IMG/VR virus record: IMGVR_UViG_3300031669_000210
Span: 1 to 26,203 of that record
Origin: a virus
Strand: one strand, 5' to 3'
Length of the DNA: 26,203 nt
A model generated the notes under the pieces. The model was given only the letters and a program-made list of their open reading frames with translations. It did no database searches and was not told the DNA's origin. Position numbers and translations under genes: made by a program. Position 1 is the first letter of the stretch. Every line of letters begins with the position of its first letter. Below, one piece after another: positions 3,413-17,117 of the stretch.

Positions 3413-3657
3413 AAAATAAGCTGATCGATTTGAACAATCATCTCTTTGCGGAGGTGGAGCGGTTGTCGGATGAAGACCTGAAAGGCGAGGCGCTGCAGGA
3501 GGAGATCTGCCGCGCCAAAAGCGTGAGCAACGTGGCCGCTCAGATTATTAACAACGCGAGTCTCGCGTTGAAGGCCCAGATAGCCATAAACGACGGGCTC
3601 ATCGACTCGGCCCCGCAAATGCTGGGGATTGGATCGGGTGTTAAAGACGATGAGTAG
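3409..3657 (+). CDS. Small early phage protein (conserved-looking helical protein)
   Basis: 82 aa, almost entirely helical and acidic, with the pattern DLNNHLFAEVERLSDEDLKGEALQEEI...AKSVSNVAAQIINNASLALKAQ. Proteins of this look are common in the early region of Mu-like prophages, between gam and the late genes, but I know of no function. It shares ATGA with the gene before it and its TAG stop lies inside the start region of the HNH gene (ATG 3650), so all three are coupled. No membrane segment or metal motif is visible. Confidence 0.7.
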   Translation: MKNKLIDLNNHLFAEVERLSDEDLKGEALQEEICRAKSVSNVAAQIINNASLALKAQIAINDGLIDSAPQMLGIGSGVKDDE

Positions 3658-5119
3658 ATTCATCTACACCGATGAGCACCTTGAATTCCTGCGGGATGGA
3701 TATCTCACCATGAACACCCGGAGCCTTGCCCGGGCGTTCAACGACCGGTTCGGCATGGAGAAAACCGAAGAAGCGATCGGCAGTGCTTTGCGCAAGAATG
3801 CGATCAGATGCGGCCGGGCGCATAAGGACAGGCTGATAAACCGGGAACGTCTTTTTACCGCTGGGCAGGCGCAGTTCATTCGCGGCCAGTACAAAGGCAG
3901 GAGCATGGCAGAGATGACCGCTTTATTCAACAGGCGCTTCGGGACCGGCATGACGGTGAAACAAATTAGAACGTTTGTGCACAACCGGGGCATCAAATCC
4001 GGGCGGACGGGGCACTTTCCCAGGGGCCACAGGCCCTGGAACGCGGGCACAAAGGGCCTGACCGGCCCGAATAAAACCAGCTTCAAAAAAGGGAATGCGC
4101 CTCCGAACCGCAAGCCGATCGGGGCGGAGCGGATCGGTTCAAAAGAGGGGTTTATTTTGATGAAAGTACCGGAGCCCGATCCGTATACCGGATTCCCGAC
4201 CCGGTATAAGCACAAGCACGTATATCTGTGGGAGCAGGCGCACGGCCCGGTGCCGGAGGGCATGGTCGTGGCGTTTGTCGACGGGGACAAAACCCGGTGC
4301 GACCTGGATAACCTGATGCTCATCTCCAGGGCCGAGCTCCTGAATCTGAACCGGCACGGGTATGGAGATACGCCGGACAGTCTCAAGCCAAGCGTGCTGG
4401 CGTTGTCGACGCTGGAGGTTAGGACCTGGAAGAGGGAGAAGGCCGGAAGGCTAGAAAGCATGGAAGCAGTAAGCATAGAACCGCACAACCTTGCCAGCAT
4501 GATGGACCGGGCCAAGCTCCTGGCCGGGCCGGGGTATTTTACGTGCGAGCGCACGCACACGCGCATGAAAAAAATAGCCTGCATGGATCGGCAGCGGCCA
4601 TATGTTGCGCACGGCAATACCTATGAACCGCCGCCCGAGTGCAGGGATTGCCCGCAGGGGCAGGAGATTACGGCTCTATTAAAAGGGGAGGATCGAATGG
4701 AAGAACAAAAAACAGTTGCAGTCAAGATGTGCGATGAGCCGGGCTGCATGAAGCCGGCCAAAATAAAAGGCAAATGTAAGCGGCACTATCAAAAGACGTA
4801 TTTCGGTAAGGCATATTACGCGAAACGGGCATTGAGGCGGCGGGGAAAAAAGCTGCAAAAAGCGACGGGCGTGAAGGATTTGAGGGAAGATACAAAAGAT
4901 ACAAAAGATATCACCGGCGGAAAAGTCACGCGACCCGGGCCGTGGCCTGAGCCGCCTGAGGAAGAGATTCGGGACAACGGTCCGGCCCTCACGCTGCAAT
5001 TTGATCAACATCCGGATCTTTATGAGAAGCTCGAAACGAAGGCCGCCGCCGAGCTCCGCACACCGGAGCTGCAGGCGCTCTATTTCATCCGGGAGGCATT
5101 GCAAAGCCATGACCAATAA
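3650..5119 (+). CDS. Phage HNH-family protein with two N-terminal helical repeats and added zinc-finger segments
   Basis: 489 aa from ATG 3650. A TTG 21 nt upstream is in frame but the ATG overlapping the previous stop is preferred. Two related helix-turn-helix-like repeats cover about residues 5-55 and 66-117 (FTAGQAQFIRGQYKGRSM). The HNH-like core is at 187-231: HKHVYLWEQAHGPVPEGM, then VVAFVDGDKTRCDLDNLMLIS. The position that is usually His before DGD is Phe, as I recall from many phage relatives, so nuclease activity is not assured. After the core come two Cys clusters: C299, C311, C331, C334, and C361-x4-C366-x9-C376-x2-H379. The last third is basic, then Pro-rich and acidic. This is much longer than the usual phage HNH protein of about 200-250 aa and looks like a fusion. 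An internal start at 4697 is described separately. Confidence 0.8.
   Translation: MSRFIYTDEHLEFLRDGYLTMNTRSLARAFNDRFGMEKTEEAIGSALRKNAIRCGRAHKDRLINRERLFTAGQAQFIRGQYKGRSMAEMTALFNRRFGTGMTVKQIRTFVHNRGIKSGRTGHFPRGHRPWNAGTKGLTGPNKTSFKKGNAPPNRKPIGAERIGSKEGFILMKVPEPDPYTGFPTRYKHKHVYLWEQAHGPVPEGMVVAFVDGDKTRCDLDNLMLISRAELLNLNRHGYGDTPDSLKPSVLALSTLEVRTWKREKAGRLESMEAVSIEPHNLASMMDRAKLLAGPGYFTCERTHTRMKKIACMDRQRPYVAHGNTYEPPPECRDCPQGQEITALLKGEDRMEEQKTVAVKMCDEPGCMKPAKIKGKCKRHYQKTYFGKAYYAKRALRRRGKKLQKATGVKDLREDTKDTKDITGGKVTRPGPWPEPPEEEIRDNGPALTLQFDQHPDLYEKLETKAAAELRTPELQALYFIREALQSHDQ
4697..5119 (+). CDS. Possible internal translation product of the HNH gene (zinc-finger C-terminal part)
   Basis: Within the HNH frame, ATG 4697 (residue 350) is preceded by GGGGAGG at 4685-4691, a good ribosome binding site with 5-nt spacing. 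Initiation here would give a 140-aa protein with the Cys cluster CDEPGC...CKRH, a basic segment (RALRRRGKKLQ) and an acidic C-terminal end that reads ALQSHDQ. The region upstream of 4697 still reads as protein in the same frame, so this may be either a nested product or the remains of a separate gene now fused in frame. No experiment distinguishes them here. Confidence 0.35.
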   Translation: MEEQKTVAVKMCDEPGCMKPAKIKGKCKRHYQKTYFGKAYYAKRALRRRGKKLQKATGVKDLREDTKDTKDITGGKVTRPGPWPEPPEEEIRDNGPALTLQFDQHPDLYEKLETKAAAELRTPELQALYFIREALQSHDQ

Positions 5120-5297
5120 AGGCAACTCGTTCTGGTGTGCGGGGTGGCACCAGCAGGTCTACGAGCGGCTCTGTATGCACCGGTATATCAAGGGGCTGAA
5201 GAAGTGTGAGGGGTGCGGGAAGGGCAAAGAGCTGATCGAGGAAGAAGTGAAGAGCCTGAGGCAAGAAGCTGGAATGCTGGGAGGGCAAACCACATGA
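5109..5297 (+). CDS. Small Cys-rich protein, unknown
   Basis: 62 aa from ATG 5109, inside the last codons of the HNH gene (11-nt overlap). The Cys/His residues (WCAGWH, LCMHRY, KKCEGCGKGK) suggest a small metal-binding domain; the last pair is a C-x2-C knuckle. The C-terminal end is a charged helix (KELIEEEVKSLRQEAGM). The stop TGA overlaps the next start as ATGA (5294-5297). Position and coupling support that it is real; the function is unknown. Confidence 0.6.
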   Translation: MTNKGNSFWCAGWHQQVYERLCMHRYIKGLKKCEGCGKGKELIEEEVKSLRQEAGMLGGQTT

Positions 5298-6184
5298 CAA
5301 CGAAAATCGAGTGGTGCGAGGAGACGTGGAATCCAATTACTGGCTGTTCTCCGGTTTCCGAAGGCTGCGAGCATTGCTATGCCCGACGCATGGCCCAGCG
5401 CCTTAAAGGTCGTTATGGCTACCCGGAGGACGATCCGTTCAGGGTAACGTTTCATCCGGACCGACTTGAACAGCCGTTGAAATGGAAAAAGCCCCGGATG
5501 ATCTTTGTCTGTTCAATGGGGGACTTATTCCATCCAGACGTTGATTGGCTAACAATCGATAACGTCCTTAACACTTGTTGGCGAGCAACAAGACACACAT
5601 TCCTAGTACTCACCAAACGCATAGAGGCCGCGTGGTATTATTTTCGATCACCAATATTTTTAACGCCAGACCATTGGAGGCGTGAATTCTTAGATCGAGG
5701 AAATATTTGGCTCGGAGTCACCGCCGAAAATCAGCAACGAGCAGACGAGCGCATTCCCATTCTCTTACAGATCCCGGCTGCTAAACATTTTGTGAGCATA
5801 GAACCGATGTTGGGACCGGTTCAAATAAGGGGAAATTATCATTTAGGAGAACAGACGATTGGGTCATGGCCACAAGGACTCGATTGGGTAATCCTCGGCG
5901 GTGAATCCGGCCCCGGTGCCCGGCCCATGCACCCGGACTGGGCGCGGTCGGTTCGGGATCAATGCCAGGCGGCGGGAGTGCCGTTTTTCTTTAAGCAATG
6001 GGGGGAATGGAAACCTTATTCAAAACGGTTGGGCGGCGGCATATTTATCAAACCAGACGGAACAAAAACCTGTCAAGGCGAATATTGGGACGGCCAAGCA
6101 GCAGCAATGAATCGTCTCGGCAAAAAAGCCGCTGGCCGTCTACTCGATGGCCGGGAATGGAATGAGAGGCCAGAAACGGAGTAA
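5294..6184 (+). CDS. DUF5131 / phage Gp37-Gp68 family protein (radical-SAM-like Cys motif)
   Basis: 296 aa. The family hallmarks are clear: IEWCEETWNPITGC with C18-x6-C25-x2-C28 (the GCEHCYA motif, reminiscent of radical SAM cluster ligands), a MIFVCSMGDLFHPDV segment, HTFLVLTKR, NIWLGVTAENQ, FVSIEPMLGP and the C-terminal VILGGESGPGARPMHPDW...PFFFKQWGEW. The family is widespread in phages and mobile islands. Its reaction is not established to my knowledge. In other genomes relatives often sit beside 'three-Cys-motif partner' genes, but none is seen here. ATG 5294 overlaps the previous stop. From about 5540 to 5860 the base composition turns A+T-rich compared with the phage core, the left end of an accessory block, which points to separate acquisition. 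Confidence 0.85.
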   Translation: MTTKIEWCEETWNPITGCSPVSEGCEHCYARRMAQRLKGRYGYPEDDPFRVTFHPDRLEQPLKWKKPRMIFVCSMGDLFHPDVDWLTIDNVLNTCWRATRHTFLVLTKRIEAAWYYFRSPIFLTPDHWRREFLDRGNIWLGVTAENQQRADERIPILLQIPAAKHFVSIEPMLGPVQIRGNYHLGEQTIGSWPQGLDWVILGGESGPGARPMHPDWARSVRDQCQAAGVPFFFKQWGEWKPYSKRLGGGIFIKPDGTKTCQGEYWDGQAAAMNRLGKKAAGRLLDGREWNERPETE

Positions 6185-12608: not shown

Positions 12609-14240
12609 ATGATACTGGACCAGTTCGGACGGGAAATCAAGACGATGAAGGTGCCGGAGCGGCGGCCCCTGGCGGCGGCGCCGGTCCTGGATTCGTGGCG
12701 GGAGTACGTGAGCGCGGGCCTGACCCCGCGGCGGCTGACGACCCTGCTCAAAGAGGCGGACTCCGGGAACGTGCAGAGACAGGCCGAGCTGTTCGACCAG
12801 ATGGAGGAAAAGGACGCTCACCTCCTGGGGGAGGCGGAGAAGCGGAGAAACGCCATACTGGATGTGGAGTTCCGGGTTTCGCCGGCCTCGGAGGACAGCC
12901 GGGACGTGAAGACGGCGGAGTTCGTGCAGGAGTACTTCGACAATTTCACGGACTGGGACGATACCCTGGTCTCGCTCCAGGACAGCGTCGGAAAGGGGTT
13001 CTCGGCCCTGGAGATCCACTGGGACGTGTCGTCCGGCCAGGCCATGCCGAGGGACCTGGAATTCATCGAGCAGAAACGGTTTCTGTTCACCGATCCGGCC
13101 GGGTACCTGCGCAAATATCCCCGCCTGCTCTCGGACGCCAACATGATGGGCGAGGAGATCCCGGCGTGGAAGATCCTCTTCCACCGCTACGGGGGCAAGG
13201 CGGGCCACGCGGCGCGGTCCGGTATTTACCGGGTGTGCGCGTGGATGTTCCTTTTCCGCAATTACGCGCTCAAGGACTGGATGGCGTTCCTGGAGGTGTT
13301 CGGGATGCCCCTCAGGCTTGGGAAATATGACCCCGGCGCGGGCCCGGAAGACAAGGACGCCCTGATCACGGCCATACAATCCCTGGGCTCGGACGCGGCC
13401 GGGATCATCTCCAAGAATACGGAGATCGAATTCGTCGAGGCGGTCAAGCACGGGGCCGGGGGGAACAACCCGTACGAGACGATGGCCGTGTACTGCGGGA
13501 AGGAAATATCCAAGGCCCTGCTGGGCCAGACCCTGACCGCGGACGTGGGCGACGTGGGCTCCTACGCGGCTGCCAGGACCCACAACGAGGTGCGCATCGA
13601 CCTGGCCAAGGCGGATACGCGCACCGTGGGAGCGACCGTCAGGTACCAGCTTATACGGCCGATGGTGGGATTTAACTTCGGGTGGGACACGCCGGTACCC
13701 GGATACGCCGCGATCTGGAACGAGCGCGAGGACCTCAAGAGCCTGAGCGAGGTATACAAAAATGTGATCCAGTTCGGCCAGCCGGTTTCCGCCGAGCACG
13801 TGAGCGAGCGGTTCGGGATCCCGCTGCCGGAGGAGGACCAGACGATTTTGCAGCCCGTGAGTTCCGCCCCGATGGCCATGAAGCGTTTAAATCCGGCCCA
13901 GGCTGCGAGAACCGGGGCAAAAACGTCTAATCATACGCGGCTCGCGGCAAAAGACGACCCAGGGCCTGTTTTTGACGCGGAGCAGCAGGAACTGGAGGAG
14001 CTCGCGGACGATTCCCTGGGTCTCGCGGCCGCGGCATGGAAAGGGATAGACGGCCCGGTCCGGAAGCTGATCGAATCCAGCTCGTCCCTGGAGGAATTGC
14101 GGGACAGGATATTCGATATCTACGCGGACCTGGATCCGGCGGACCTGGAAAAGGTGGTACGCGACGCCCTGGTCACCGCGGCACTGGCAGGCGCGGCGGA
14201 CGCGGCGAAGGGAAGGAAAAAATTGAAAATTGACAATTGA
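12609..14240 (+). CDS. Portal protein (Mu gp29, DUF935)
   Basis: 543 aa with the DUF935 portal pattern: ILDQFGREI opening, LTPRRLTTLLKEADSGNVQRQAELFDQMEEKDAHLLGEAEKRRNAIL, FSALEIHWD, a GIYRVCAWMFLFRNYALKDWMAFLEVFGMPLRLGKYD core, and GQTLTADVGDVGSYAAARTHNEVR. It forms the dodecameric ring at the head vertex through which DNA enters and to which the tail is attached. The C-terminal region after about residue 410 is Ala/Glu-rich and helical, as in Mu relatives. The last four residues (KIDN) and the stop are encoded by the ATTGAAA/ATTGACA repeat that fills the following gap, so the original C-terminal end may have been altered. The start site GGAG lies in a small hairpin. Confidence 0.92.
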   Translation: MILDQFGREIKTMKVPERRPLAAAPVLDSWREYVSAGLTPRRLTTLLKEADSGNVQRQAELFDQMEEKDAHLLGEAEKRRNAILDVEFRVSPASEDSRDVKTAEFVQEYFDNFTDWDDTLVSLQDSVGKGFSALEIHWDVSSGQAMPRDLEFIEQKRFLFTDPAGYLRKYPRLLSDANMMGEEIPAWKILFHRYGGKAGHAARSGIYRVCAWMFLFRNYALKDWMAFLEVFGMPLRLGKYDPGAGPEDKDALITAIQSLGSDAAGIISKNTEIEFVEAVKHGAGGNNPYETMAVYCGKEISKALLGQTLTADVGDVGSYAAARTHNEVRIDLAKADTRTVGATVRYQLIRPMVGFNFGWDTPVPGYAAIWNEREDLKSLSEVYKNVIQFGQPVSAEHVSERFGIPLPEEDQTILQPVSSAPMAMKRLNPAQAARTGAKTSNHTRLAAKDDPGPVFDAEQQELEELADDSLGLAAAAWKGIDGPVRKLIESSSSLEELRDRIFDIYADLDPADLEKVVRDALVTAALAGAADAAKGRKKLKIDN

Positions 14241-14268: not shown

Positions 14269-14598
14269 ATGAGACCATTATTTTACGCATTCGTGGGGTT
14301 TTGCCTCATGGCGCTTTTGCTGCCGGCACTCGCTTTCGGCAATCCGTTCCTGGTCTGCGATCCGCAGGCGGGAGTAACGGAATACGTAGTGGAGACCAAC
14401 GGCGCAGAGAGCGCCGCGTTTACGGCCGAGCCGGACGGATCCATGAAATACGACCTGGCCGGGCTTCCCCAGGGATCGTACACGGTCAGGGCCAAGGCGG
14501 GCAATATATGGGGGTGGTCGGGATACTCGGACCCTTTCGATTTCAACAAGGCGGTTCCGGGGACACCCACCGGCCTCCGTGTTTCATCGGGGCCATAA
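14269..14598 (+). CDS. Small secreted protein with one FN3-like beta domain
   Basis: 109 aa from ATG 14269, with AGGAGGGAG just upstream. Residues 1-22 are a clear Sec signal peptide (basic start MRP, hydrophobic core FYAFVGFCLMALLLPALA, likely cleavage after ALA or AFG). The mature part NPFLVCDPQAGVTEYVVE...LAGLPQGSYTVRAKAGNIWGWSGYSDPFDF reads as a fibronectin-III-like beta sandwich and ends in PGTPTGLRVSSGP, which looks like the start of a further domain cut short. I recall similar small exported proteins in prophages of Desulfovibrio-type hosts. A secreted protein between portal and head-completion genes is not part of the Mu head; it may be a surface or periplasmic moron (for example exclusion). 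Function unproven. Confidence 0.7.
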   Translation: MRPLFYAFVGFCLMALLLPALAFGNPFLVCDPQAGVTEYVVETNGAESAAFTAEPDGSMKYDLAGLPQGSYTVRAKAGNIWGWSGYSDPFDFNKAVPGTPTGLRVSSGP

Positions 14599-14611
14599 GG
14601 CAGGAGTAAAG

Positions 14612-15157
14612 GTGGATCTGACGCTACGCATCGCGGACGAGGAGACGGTCATCAAGGCCCTGGATGAACTGGGCGACAGGGCGCGGGATCTCACGCAGCC
14701 CCTGGCGGATTTCGGCGAGCGCCTGGTCAGGAAGATATCGAAGCGCCTGTCCGGCCCGGCGCTCAAGGAGAGGACGGGCAGGCTCAAGGGCAGCCTGGCC
14801 CACGAGGAGACAGCCGGCACGGCGGAGATCTCCGCGGGAGGGGGCCCGGGCGAGGTGGATTACGCGGCGATACACCAGTACGGCGGGACGATCAGGCCGA
14901 AAAAAAAGAAGTTCCTGACCATCCCGTTTCCCGGCGGGCCCGCGGATAAGCGCGTGCCGCTGCGGGCCGCGGATTTTGAAGATACCTTCGTGGCAAAGGG
15001 GATCATCTTTCAGAAGAGGGGCGAGGATATCGTGCCGCTTTTTATACTCAAAAAATCCGTAGTGATCCCGGCGACGCCGTACATGTACCTGGAGGACTCG
15101 GACGAGCGGTATCTCGACGAATCGATAGCCGATTTTATCGCGGGGGCGTGGGCATGA
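14612..15157 (+). CDS. Phage virion morphogenesis / head-tail completion protein (Mu gpG-like)
   Basis: 181 aa using GTG 14612, which follows CAGGAG at a suitable distance; a longer in-frame version from 14579 overlaps the previous gene and is less likely. The sequence has the family signs: VIKALDELGDRARDLTQPLADFGERLVRKISKRL, RTGRLKGSL, and VDYAAIHQYGGTIRPKKKKFLTIPF, then PATPYMYLEDSDERYLDESIADFI. Proteins of this type are minor virion components for head-tail joining or tail completion. In Mu, gpG lies in the same neighbourhood of the head cluster. The stop overlaps the MuF start (ATGA at 15154-15157). Confidence 0.82.
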   Translation: MDLTLRIADEETVIKALDELGDRARDLTQPLADFGERLVRKISKRLSGPALKERTGRLKGSLAHEETAGTAEISAGGGPGEVDYAAIHQYGGTIRPKKKKFLTIPFPGGPADKRVPLRAADFEDTFVAKGIIFQKRGEDIVPLFILKKSVVIPATPYMYLEDSDERYLDESIADFIAGAWA

Positions 15158-15639
15158 AAGGGATGCCGTTTGCAGAGGCGGTGGAATTTTTCCGGAAGAA
15201 GACGGCCATGCCCGGACCGGAGTTCGAGACCCTGGCGGCGGAAGTGGGTGACTATGCAAACAGCCTGGCCTTTACGGTGTCGCGCATCGGCTCTGCCGAC
15301 CTGCTGCAGGACCTGCACGGCGAGGTCCTGAAGGCCATCGAGGAGGGCGGGACGTTCTGGGACTTCCGCGAGGGGATCGACGAGATCATGGCCCGGCGGG
15401 GCTGGGCAGGCATGACGCCCTACCGGCTGGACAACATCTTCAGGACGAACGTGCAGGGCGCCTATAACGTAGGCAGGCACAAGCAGATGAAGGGCGTAGC
15501 GGCGAGAAGGCCGTACTGGGAATATGACGCGGTGAACGACACGCACACGCGCCCGAGCCACCTGGCCCATGACGGCAAGATCTATCACCACGAGCACCCG
15601 TTCTGGAATACGTGGTATCCGCTGAACGGGTACAGGTGA
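15154..15639 (+). CDS. MuF-like head morphogenesis protein (SPP1 gp7 / Mu gp30 family), N-terminal 161 aa up to an in-frame TGA
   Basis: The Mu F domain is clear: WDFREGIDEIMARRGWAGMTPYRLDNIFRTNVQGAYNVGRHKQM, then YWEYDAVNDTHTRPSHLAHDGKIYHHEHPFWNTWYPLNGYR. In the family the motif continues NGxRCRC. Here the codon after NGYR is TGA (15637-15639), and the same frame goes on R-C-R-V-N-S to 15828 with further MuF-like sequence. So the conserved first Cys is replaced by TGA. This may encode selenocysteine, be read through, or be a point mutation from TGC/TGT. MuF proteins are minor capsid proteins near the portal, needed for head assembly or ejection. ATG 15154 overlaps the previous stop. The full frame 15154-15828 would give 224 residues including the TGA position. 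Confidence 0.85.
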   Translation: MKGMPFAEAVEFFRKKTAMPGPEFETLAAEVGDYANSLAFTVSRIGSADLLQDLHGEVLKAIEEGGTFWDFREGIDEIMARRGWAGMTPYRLDNIFRTNVQGAYNVGRHKQMKGVAARRPYWEYDAVNDTHTRPSHLAHDGKIYHHEHPFWNTWYPLNGYR

Positions 15640-15828
15640 AGGTGCCGCGTGAACAGCATCTCCCGTGAGGAGATGGAGGAGGAGGGGCTCACAGAGGAGA
15701 AGCGGGGCACGGATCTGAAGCCGGACGAGGGATTCCGGTACAACCCTGCGGTGCGGAAATGGCGGCCGGACCCGGGAAAATACGACCCGCGGCTGCGCGA
15801 TCGCATGGAGGAAGCGATATGGGATTGA
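15640..15828 (+). CDS. C-terminal continuation of the MuF-like gene beyond the in-frame TGA
   Basis: The frame of the MuF gene stays open for 62 codons after the TGA and ends at TGA 15826-15828, overlapping the protease start (ATG 15819) by 10 nt, the same type of overlap seen across this operon. The sequence RCRVNSISREEM... and GFRYNPAVRKWRPD (about residues 193-206 of the full frame) matches what normally follows the RCRC motif in Mu F proteins. There is no good independent start: GTG 15649 has only a weak AGG upstream and would begin inside the motif. It is therefore best read as the second half of one gene, made by Sec insertion or readthrough, or lost if the TGA is a mutation. Confidence 0.6.
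   Translation, partial: RCRVNSISREEMEEEGLTEEKRGTDLKPDEGFRYNPAVRKWRPDPGKYDPRLRDRMEEAIWD
15657..15675 (+). promoter_or_regulatory. Hairpin after the MuF TGA, possible bacterial SECIS-like element
   Basis: A perfect 7-bp stem CATCTCC / GGAGATG with loop CGTGA lies within the coding region 18-36 nt after the TGA; its loop, which contains GT, is 25-29 nt after the TGA. Bacterial SECIS hairpins lie directly downstream of the UGA with the apical loop at about this distance. The stem is short and no bulged U is evident, so this is suggestive only. Confidence 0.3.
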
Positions 15829-17117
15829 AACTTTTATATGTACTCAAGAGCATCGAGGGCGCCCCGGGAGAATTCCAGCTCTTTCCGTACGGGAAGATCG
15901 GGATCGAGGGCGAGGCCGATGCGTTTGTGGACGGCGAATCGATGGACGCCATTATCGCCGATTTCGAGCGCCGGGGAAACGACATGGTCATCGATTACGA
16001 ACATCAGACCCTCCAGGGCGTCGAGGCCCCGGCCGCGGGATGGGTCAAGCGGCTCATCAACCGCGGCACCGAAGGGCTCTGGGTGATCGTGGAGTGGACC
16101 AGGCAGGCAAAGGAATACCTGGAGAACCGGGAGTACCGCTATTTCTCGCCGGTGTTCTGGGTCTCCGACAAGGGGCGGAAGATCGTCAAGATCGAGAACG
16201 TGGCCCTGACCAATTATCCGCGCATCAACAACCTGCGGCCGATCATGGCCAAGATGAGCCTGGAGGAGGAGCGGCAGGCCAGGGAGGACCGCTCCAAAAA
16301 ATACAAGATCGGCATCAAGGAAGGCGGGCACGTGACGAAGCCGGGCGAGTGGGAAAGCGTGCCCGACGACGAGTGGCTGGACCCGGTGAATTACCGCTAC
16401 CCCTGCCCGGACGCGGCCCAGACGCGGGCGGCTGCGGGCTACTGGGGCCGGGAGGATAACCAGGCCCAATACAACCTCGAGGAGCGCTCGATCATCAACG
16501 GGCGATTGGATAGGTTCCGTAAAAAATTCAACATCGGTGAATACCGAAAGGAGGAAAGCAAGATGGAATTTTTAAAAAAACTTATAGCAAAACTCGGACT
16601 CAAGGCCGAGGCTACAGAGGACCAGGTTATTGAGGCAATGGATGCTATGCTTACCAAGAACAAGGACCTGGAAAAGCAGGTCGCGGAAAAGCCGAAAGAG
16701 GTCGTGGCCAAGGAGGTAATCGAGGCCCTGGATCTGAAGGAGACGGACGGCGTCTCGACCGTGGTGGCGTCCATCCACGCGCTCAAGCAAACCGGCAAGG
16801 GAACGGTATCCAGGGAGGAATTCGAAAAGATACAGAAGGATCTCTGCAAGCGGGACGCGGACGAGGTCACGGCCAAGGCTATGGCCGAGGGCAAGATCAC
16901 GCCGGATCAGAAAGACTGGGCCGCACAGTACGCGGAGCGGGACCTGGAAGGGTTCAAGACCTTCGTGGCCAAGGCCCCGGTGGTAGTGCCGGTGAAAGAC
17001 CTGGCCAGAAAGGAGGTCAAGGCGGACGACGTGATCGCGAACGAGGCGGTCCTCAACGTGGCCAAGATGTTCGGCAATACGCCGGAGGATATCAAGAAGT
17101 ACGGGGGATTGAACTAA
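15819..17117 (+). CDS. Mu gpI-like prohead protease with C-terminal scaffold
   Basis: 432 aa from ATG 15819. The N-terminal part is the Mu I-type prohead protease: FPYGKIGIEGEADAFVDGESMDAIIADFERRGNDMVIDYEHQTLQG...PAAGWVKRLINRGTEGLWVIVEWT, then the EYRYFSPVFWV block. Next comes a small separate domain (about 164-240; KKYKIGIKEGGHVTKPGEWESVPDDEWLDPVNYRYPCPD) of the type often attached to phage proteases. From residue 249 the sequence is a helical scaffold (FLKKLIAKLGLKAEATEDQVIEAMD...). In Mu the scaffold Z is made from an internal start in I, and an equivalent site is present here. The protease cuts the scaffold during head maturation. The start overlaps the MuF readthrough frame. Confidence 0.88.
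   Translation: MGLKLLYVLKSIEGAPGEFQLFPYGKIGIEGEADAFVDGESMDAIIADFERRGNDMVIDYEHQTLQGVEAPAAGWVKRLINRGTEGLWVIVEWTRQAKEYLENREYRYFSPVFWVSDKGRKIVKIENVALTNYPRINNLRPIMAKMSLEEERQAREDRSKKYKIGIKEGGHVTKPGEWESVPDDEWLDPVNYRYPCPDAAQTRAAAGYWGREDNQAQYNLEERSIINGRLDRFRKKFNIGEYRKEESKMEFLKKLIAKLGLKAEATEDQVIEAMDAMLTKNKDLEKQVAEKPKEVVAKEVIEALDLKETDGVSTVVASIHALKQTGKGTVSREEFEKIQKDLCKRDADEVTAKAMAEGKITPDQKDWAAQYAERDLEGFKTFVAKAPVVVPVKDLARKEVKADDVIANEAVLNVAKMFGNTPEDIKKYGGLN
16563..17117 (+). CDS. Internal-start scaffold protein (Mu gpZ-like)
   Basis: ATG 16563 lies in frame inside the protease gene and is preceded by a near-perfect ribosome binding site AAAGGAGG (16547-16554) at 8-nt spacing, stronger than most sites in the window. 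The product is 184 aa, helical and charged (NKDLEKQVAEKPKEVVAKEVIEALDL...), ending NVAKMFGNTPEDIKKYGGLN. Mu produces its scaffold Z in exactly this nested way from gene I. The strong site and matching domain boundary make a separate scaffold product very likely. Confidence 0.75.
   Translation: MEFLKKLIAKLGLKAEATEDQVIEAMDAMLTKNKDLEKQVAEKPKEVVAKEVIEALDLKETDGVSTVVASIHALKQTGKGTVSREEFEKIQKDLCKRDADEVTAKAMAEGKITPDQKDWAAQYAERDLEGFKTFVAKAPVVVPVKDLARKEVKADDVIANEAVLNVAKMFGNTPEDIKKYGGLN

Follow-up and report, generated by a model that had tools for sequence, protein, structure and literature searches.

MuF is a widespread phage head domain whose function has been described as unknown (PMC5576092). The minor head proteins that carry it, such as Mu gpF and SPP1 gp7 (PF04233, TIGR01641), have in common with the genes described here the domain, the size, the location between the portal and protease genes and an invariant CxC motif. 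In contrast to the known MuF proteins, the genes that we report encode one or both cysteines of this motif by TGA and have a SECIS-like hairpin downstream of it. Interchange of selenocysteine (Sec, U) and Cys within a two-cysteine motif has been described in bacterial selenoproteins like the SO_0444 family Cu/Zn efflux transporter (UxC) and the thioredoxin-like Sec.1 (CxU) and Sec.2 (UxC) (Table 1, PMC13188914), which also present an in-frame SECIS just past the UGA; unlike the protein studied here, these are cellular transporters and redox proteins. According to the published bacterial model, a SECIS has a stem of 4-16 bp and a loop of 3-9 nt with a G in the first two positions, at a spacing of 16-37 nt (PMC13188914).

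An inventory of prokaryotic selenoproteins from 2026, with 119 families, includes no MuF, PF04233, phage or virion protein and does not mention phages (PMC13188914), NCBIfam has no selenoprotein model for MuF, and in the open-licence literature that was searched we came across no structural selenoprotein of a phage. To our knowledge, a recurrent swap between Cys and selenocysteine is not known in any protein of a virus particle. Here we analyse a stretch of 26,203 nucleotides of viral DNA (IMG/VR record IMGVR_UViG_3300031669_000210, positions 1 to 26,203; the window from here on) and conclude that the product of its MuF gene is very likely, with a probability of about 0.9, a form of this minor head protein that contains selenocysteine. 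Decoding by sel genes of the host and the presence of selenium in the protein are inferred from sequence alone. The mechanism of selenocysteine decoding is already known, and the novelty would lie in its use for this protein and by this kind of genome.

Results

The window belongs to a Mu-like phage, with genes for a Mu transposase C-terminal domain, an AAA ATPase, Portal_Mu, Phage_tail_S, a Mu-like protease and a gpT major head protein. A gene with an HNH_3 endonuclease domain (3629-5119) and a DUF5131 gene (5213-6184) were also observed in the early region of this phage. On the plus strand, the Portal_Mu gene (12609-14240) and a Phage_tail_S/virion morphogenesis gene (14579-15157) precede the MuF (phage Mu F/SPP1 gp7-like) minor head protein gene (15154-15828), whose start is overlapped by the second of them and whose end is overlapped by the start, at ATG 15819, of the Mu-like_Pro protease/scaffold gene (15819-17117). 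The criterion of a placement in the head gene cluster, beside portal and protease, is met.

The MuF frame contains a single in-frame TGA at 15637-15639 (AAC GGG TAC AGG TGA AGG TGC CGC GTG, that is, N G Y R stop R C R V), which takes the place of the first CxC cysteine (NGYR-U-R-C) and is proposed here to be a selenocysteine codon; the TGC of the second Cys is at 15643-15645. The list of open reading frames cuts the gene at this TGA, giving an ORF of 163 aa from GTG 15148, whereas readthrough from ATG 15154 to the terminal TGA at 15826-15828 gives a product of 224 aa including the putative Sec162. This readthrough protein matches Phage_Mu_F (PF04233, E 2.7e-19, residues 53-166), the minor head protein family phrog_220 (E 2.8e-66, residues 2-211) and TIGR01641 (SPP1 gp7-like), and the domain criterion for MuF, a match to PF04233 or TIGR01641 above cut-off, is met. 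In the predicted structure model the motif (residues 162-164) stands directly ahead of the final strand of the core that is predicted with confidence; a structure search confirmed the MuF fold among viral models and found no solved relative. The 62 codons downstream of the TGA (15640-15825) are conserved at the protein level, with dN/dS values of 0.25-0.29 against the homologs L015, L002 and L005.

Homologs were collected with the part of the protein upstream of the motif, the motif itself being excluded from the query, which yielded 43 loci, 35 distinct genes and 6125 codons (set 1). Most of them present TGC at both positions of NGxxCRC, and the column of the TGA is Cys in nearly all. Five in-frame stops were found in the 35 genes, all five of them TGA and each at the first or the second Cys. 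The TGA is at the first Cys in L027 and L033-L035 and at the second in L015 and L017, and L001, on another IMG/VR contig, is an identical copy of the window MuF, TGA included.

When the search was repeated with a broader alignment (A2), the motif likewise left out, it returned 74 distinct genes, five of which carry a total of six motif TGA codons (set 2). Four of these genes (L121, L138, L148 and L153) have the TGA at the first Cys, and the fifth, L194, has it at both Cys codons (NGYN-TGA-CGT-TGA, 3478-3486, same contig as L201), which corresponds to a UxU form. CRC was read in 71 loci, and the remaining genes were all CRC where the motif was readable; the sole other in-frame stop, a TAG in L171/L172, lies about 150 codons upstream, close to where the matched stretch begins. 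In view of the tallies of both sets, chance does not reasonably account for the TGA at the motif.

Targeted scans for TGA patterns added L049, L052, L053, L056, L065, L076, L085, L087, L091, L093, L120, L202 and L205; pattern matches in other frames or in short ORFs are due to chance, and many were dropped after the frame was read. All the additions that were tested match PF04233, with L120, which comes from a more distant MuF subfamily with the motif PFHPN-U-RC, just below the cut-off; in L065 the TGA is at the second Cys codon, as in L015 and L017. One strict TGA pattern was also scanned against 84,980 species genomes and gave two matches, both by chance. There are in total about 23 distinct TGA genes, of the forms UxC, CxU and, once, UxU, and identical TGA copies are found across separate contigs (window/L001; L033-L035; L085/L090). 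The selenoprotein criterion of an in-frame UGA aligned with a Cys conserved in homologs is met.

An earlier note, made without any database search, had claimed that the TGA falls exactly at the conserved first Cys of the MuF motif and that the frame stays open for 62 codons up to an overlap with the protease start, and both claims held, the former on the sequence and the homolog alignment. It had also proposed to look for Cys or TGA at this column in MuF homologs and for related TGA copies, considering that homologs all with Cys and no such copies would refute it; in fact both Cys and TGA were found. That note did not anticipate that TGA would also occur at the second Cys, that a UxU form exists or how often Cys and TGA have been exchanged.

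Two further loci showed unusual MuF genes. The TGA-containing gene of L027 (5980-7446) continues past the TGA with a C-terminal extension of 323 aa, possibly a fusion of MuF to a further domain. In the MuF gene of L023 (6001-7455), an intein-like sequence (NGYN-CFPLGTMALIPSGWKPIE...) starts exactly at the first motif Cys, and the contig ends ahead of the resumption of the extein.

In a maximum-likelihood tree of 118 MuF proteins, built with the motif masked, the state changes between Cys and TGA number at least 16, of which at least 10 are forced by well-supported branches; gain and loss could not be distinguished. L002, the nearest relative of the window MuF, has Cys, and the diverged genes L049, L076, L085 and L087 form a supported clade in which all members have TGA. 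The dN/dS past the TGA was 0.07-0.30 where dS was finite, broadly like that of the part before it, suggesting that these genes, rather than decaying, are most likely translated past the TGA. Another selenoprotein criterion, conservation of the coding sequence to either side of the UGA, is accordingly fulfilled by dN/dS.

A SECIS-like hairpin is present in the window at 15657-15675 (plus strand), with a 7-bp stem (CATCTCC/GGAGATG) and a loop CGUGA (15664-15668) that begins 24 nt past the UGA. With a folding energy of -10.6 kcal/mol it meets the SECIS criterion, which also asks for an MFE of -7.5 or lower, and it is not significant alone (p 0.095 by synonymous shuffle). Folding of the whole segment gave z-scores of -1.6 in the window and close to zero in three others, and TGA and Cys genes could not be told apart by the z-score of a generic fold-energy test. 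Because generic fold energy was uninformative in this respect, we turned to a test based on the published SECIS model, in which hairpins with a G[G/U] loop were scored in every TGA gene against synonymous codon shuffles; Cys homologs, ordinary TGA stops and genes of E. coli served as controls. The same score recovers the SECIS elements of E. coli fdhF, fdnG and fdoG.

Hairpins of this model were found in 20 of the 23 TGA genes, against 4.1 expected (z 9.4), and in 9 of 68 broad Cys homologs, against 5.3 expected (z 0.9). The difference between both groups has a Fisher p of 2e-10 when homolog kinship is ignored; as the homologs are phylogenetically related, Fisher p values overstate their independence. 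Ordinary TGA stops of the same contigs had such a hairpin in 5 of 71 cases. Among the TGA genes, L046 and L093 have no hairpin by the scored definition (2/23), and that of L087 is just short of the threshold. An Rfam search returned nothing relevant.

Among Cys genes closely related to the window or to L027/L033, 8 of 29 had the hairpin against 1.0 expected, an excess that would be expected if Cys and Sec had been interchanged recently. We also observed that two relatives with Cys (TGC), L005 (3976-4647) and L006 (5506-6177), keep nearly or exactly the hairpin of the window; these could perhaps be relics of a recent Sec form.

The position of the hairpin in the gene is nearly fixed in most members of the TGA-MuF family, with the loop about 17-18 nt after the second codon of the motif and usually 23-25 nt after the first, compared to 18-19 nt past the UGA in E. 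coli fdhF, fdnG and fdoG. When the TGA is at the second Cys, the loop keeps its position in the gene, 23-24 nt after the first codon. As the loop position is constant in UxC and CxU genes, the hairpin stays while the Sec codon moves. The UxU gene L194 has a perfect 7-bp stem (GCTCTCT-GGA-AGAGAGC) located 24 nt past the first UGA and 18 nt past the second, and in L078, L081, L091, L120 and L202 the loop is nearer, at 15-21 nt. Like the three E. coli elements, the TGA-MuF hairpins have a small apical loop with G[G/U], and the loop top of L027, L033, L078 and L081, A-GGU-pyrimidine-U (A-GGU(C/U)-U), resembles that of fdhF.

Discussion

In this work we have shown that Cys and TGA interchange at the MuF motif, that a SECIS-like hairpin is present, that the frame downstream is under selection and that TGA is a normal stop elsewhere. 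The reading of the motif TGA as selenocysteine is supported because the exchange takes place at exactly two codons in many lineages, the hairpins are at the right distance and the part past the TGA is under purifying selection. Selenocysteine was also the lead reading of the earlier note, and the support that it has now received is sequence evidence only.

Several other explanations were considered, and those that the earlier note had listed (readthrough, a split gene and a nonsense mutation) are all disfavoured with respect to selenocysteine. The least improbable of them, which we still regard as unlikely, is a programmed readthrough in which a near-cognate tRNA decodes the UGA, so that a shorter and a longer head protein are made and neither contains selenocysteine. 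It has in its favor that the part downstream of the TGA is conserved, that readthrough of in-frame stops has been proposed in prokaryotic genes (PMC7918605) and that the base after the TGA is C or A in all cases. C or A after UGA is generally regarded as a leaky context. However, this base is set by a conserved Arg (once His) codon and is therefore uninformative on readthrough. Moreover, readthrough does not predict stops only at two Cys codons, only of the TGA type and at both codons in L194, nor hairpins of the SECIS model at 15-25 nt, and a near-cognate tRNA would insert varied residues where the homologs otherwise always have Cys.

An origin of the TGA from TGC or TGT by nonsense mutation or by sequencing error, in a dead gene or a chimeric assembly, would require only a single base change from either of the two Cys codons, both of which are used. 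Against it, the same codons are affected repeatedly across lineages and no other position is, identical copies exist in the separate contigs mentioned above, diverged genes form an all-TGA clade and the dN/dS past the TGA is well below 1, which makes this possibility very unlikely. Also very unlikely is a split gene encoding two separately started proteins: an internal start for the downstream 62 codons is possible in principle (for example GTG 15649), but the MuF domain match runs to residue 166, past the TGA, the homologs are in one piece, and a TGA at either position would split the fold just ahead of its last confidently predicted strand. Finally, a changed genetic code with TGA as a sense codon throughout would account for the in-frame TGA of the MuF gene, but there is no other in-frame TGA in about 18,000 MuF codons and TGA terminates 78 of the 185 long ORFs of the same contigs. 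The code is therefore unchanged, the criterion for a reassigned TGA is not met, and this explanation is all but excluded, as the earlier note had already claimed from the use of TGA as a stop in other genes.

Taking selenocysteine as the preferred reading, we propose that in a selenocysteine-using bacterial host the ribosome would decode the UGA at 15637 as selenocysteine, which would be supplied by the host SelB and tRNA-Sec and guided by the hairpin at 15657-15675, to produce a full-length MuF with U-R-C in place of C-R-C. No phage-borne tRNA-Sec was found in the window or in 26 other records. One hairpin may serve either codon of the motif, and this would explain the UxC, CxU and UxU forms of related phages. 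Without Sec insertion, translation would end before the final strand of the MuF fold is made, which would make head assembly dependent on selenium.

With regard to the function of the motif, Sec replaces precisely two otherwise invariant Cys residues, in both orders and both at once, which argues for a thiol/selenol role. We infer that CxC likely has a redox or bonding function in the head-portal complex; the motif could act as a redox switch, form a selenenylsulfide or disulfide bond in this complex or bind metal, and any choice among these is an inference. A bolder reading, which we consider likely, is that many lineages of tailed phages, Mu-like and others, have a virion-associated head protein that is a selenoprotein, that Cys and Sec have been exchanged repeatedly at either or both residues of CxC, and that the full-length head protein needs the selenium machinery of the host. 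The organism of the L205 contig (IMGVR_UViG_2523231026_000003; TGA at 5064-5066), the name of which we take to be in the style that IMG uses for isolate genomes, would be the best candidate for an experimental host.

As standard gene calling truncates TGA-MuF genes at the TGA, such phages are probably misannotated. If our reading is true, a chemical (thiol/selenol) role would be indicated for the CxC motif of MuF, viruses would exploit selenocysteine decoding, and phage assembly would be tied to the selenium supply of the host.
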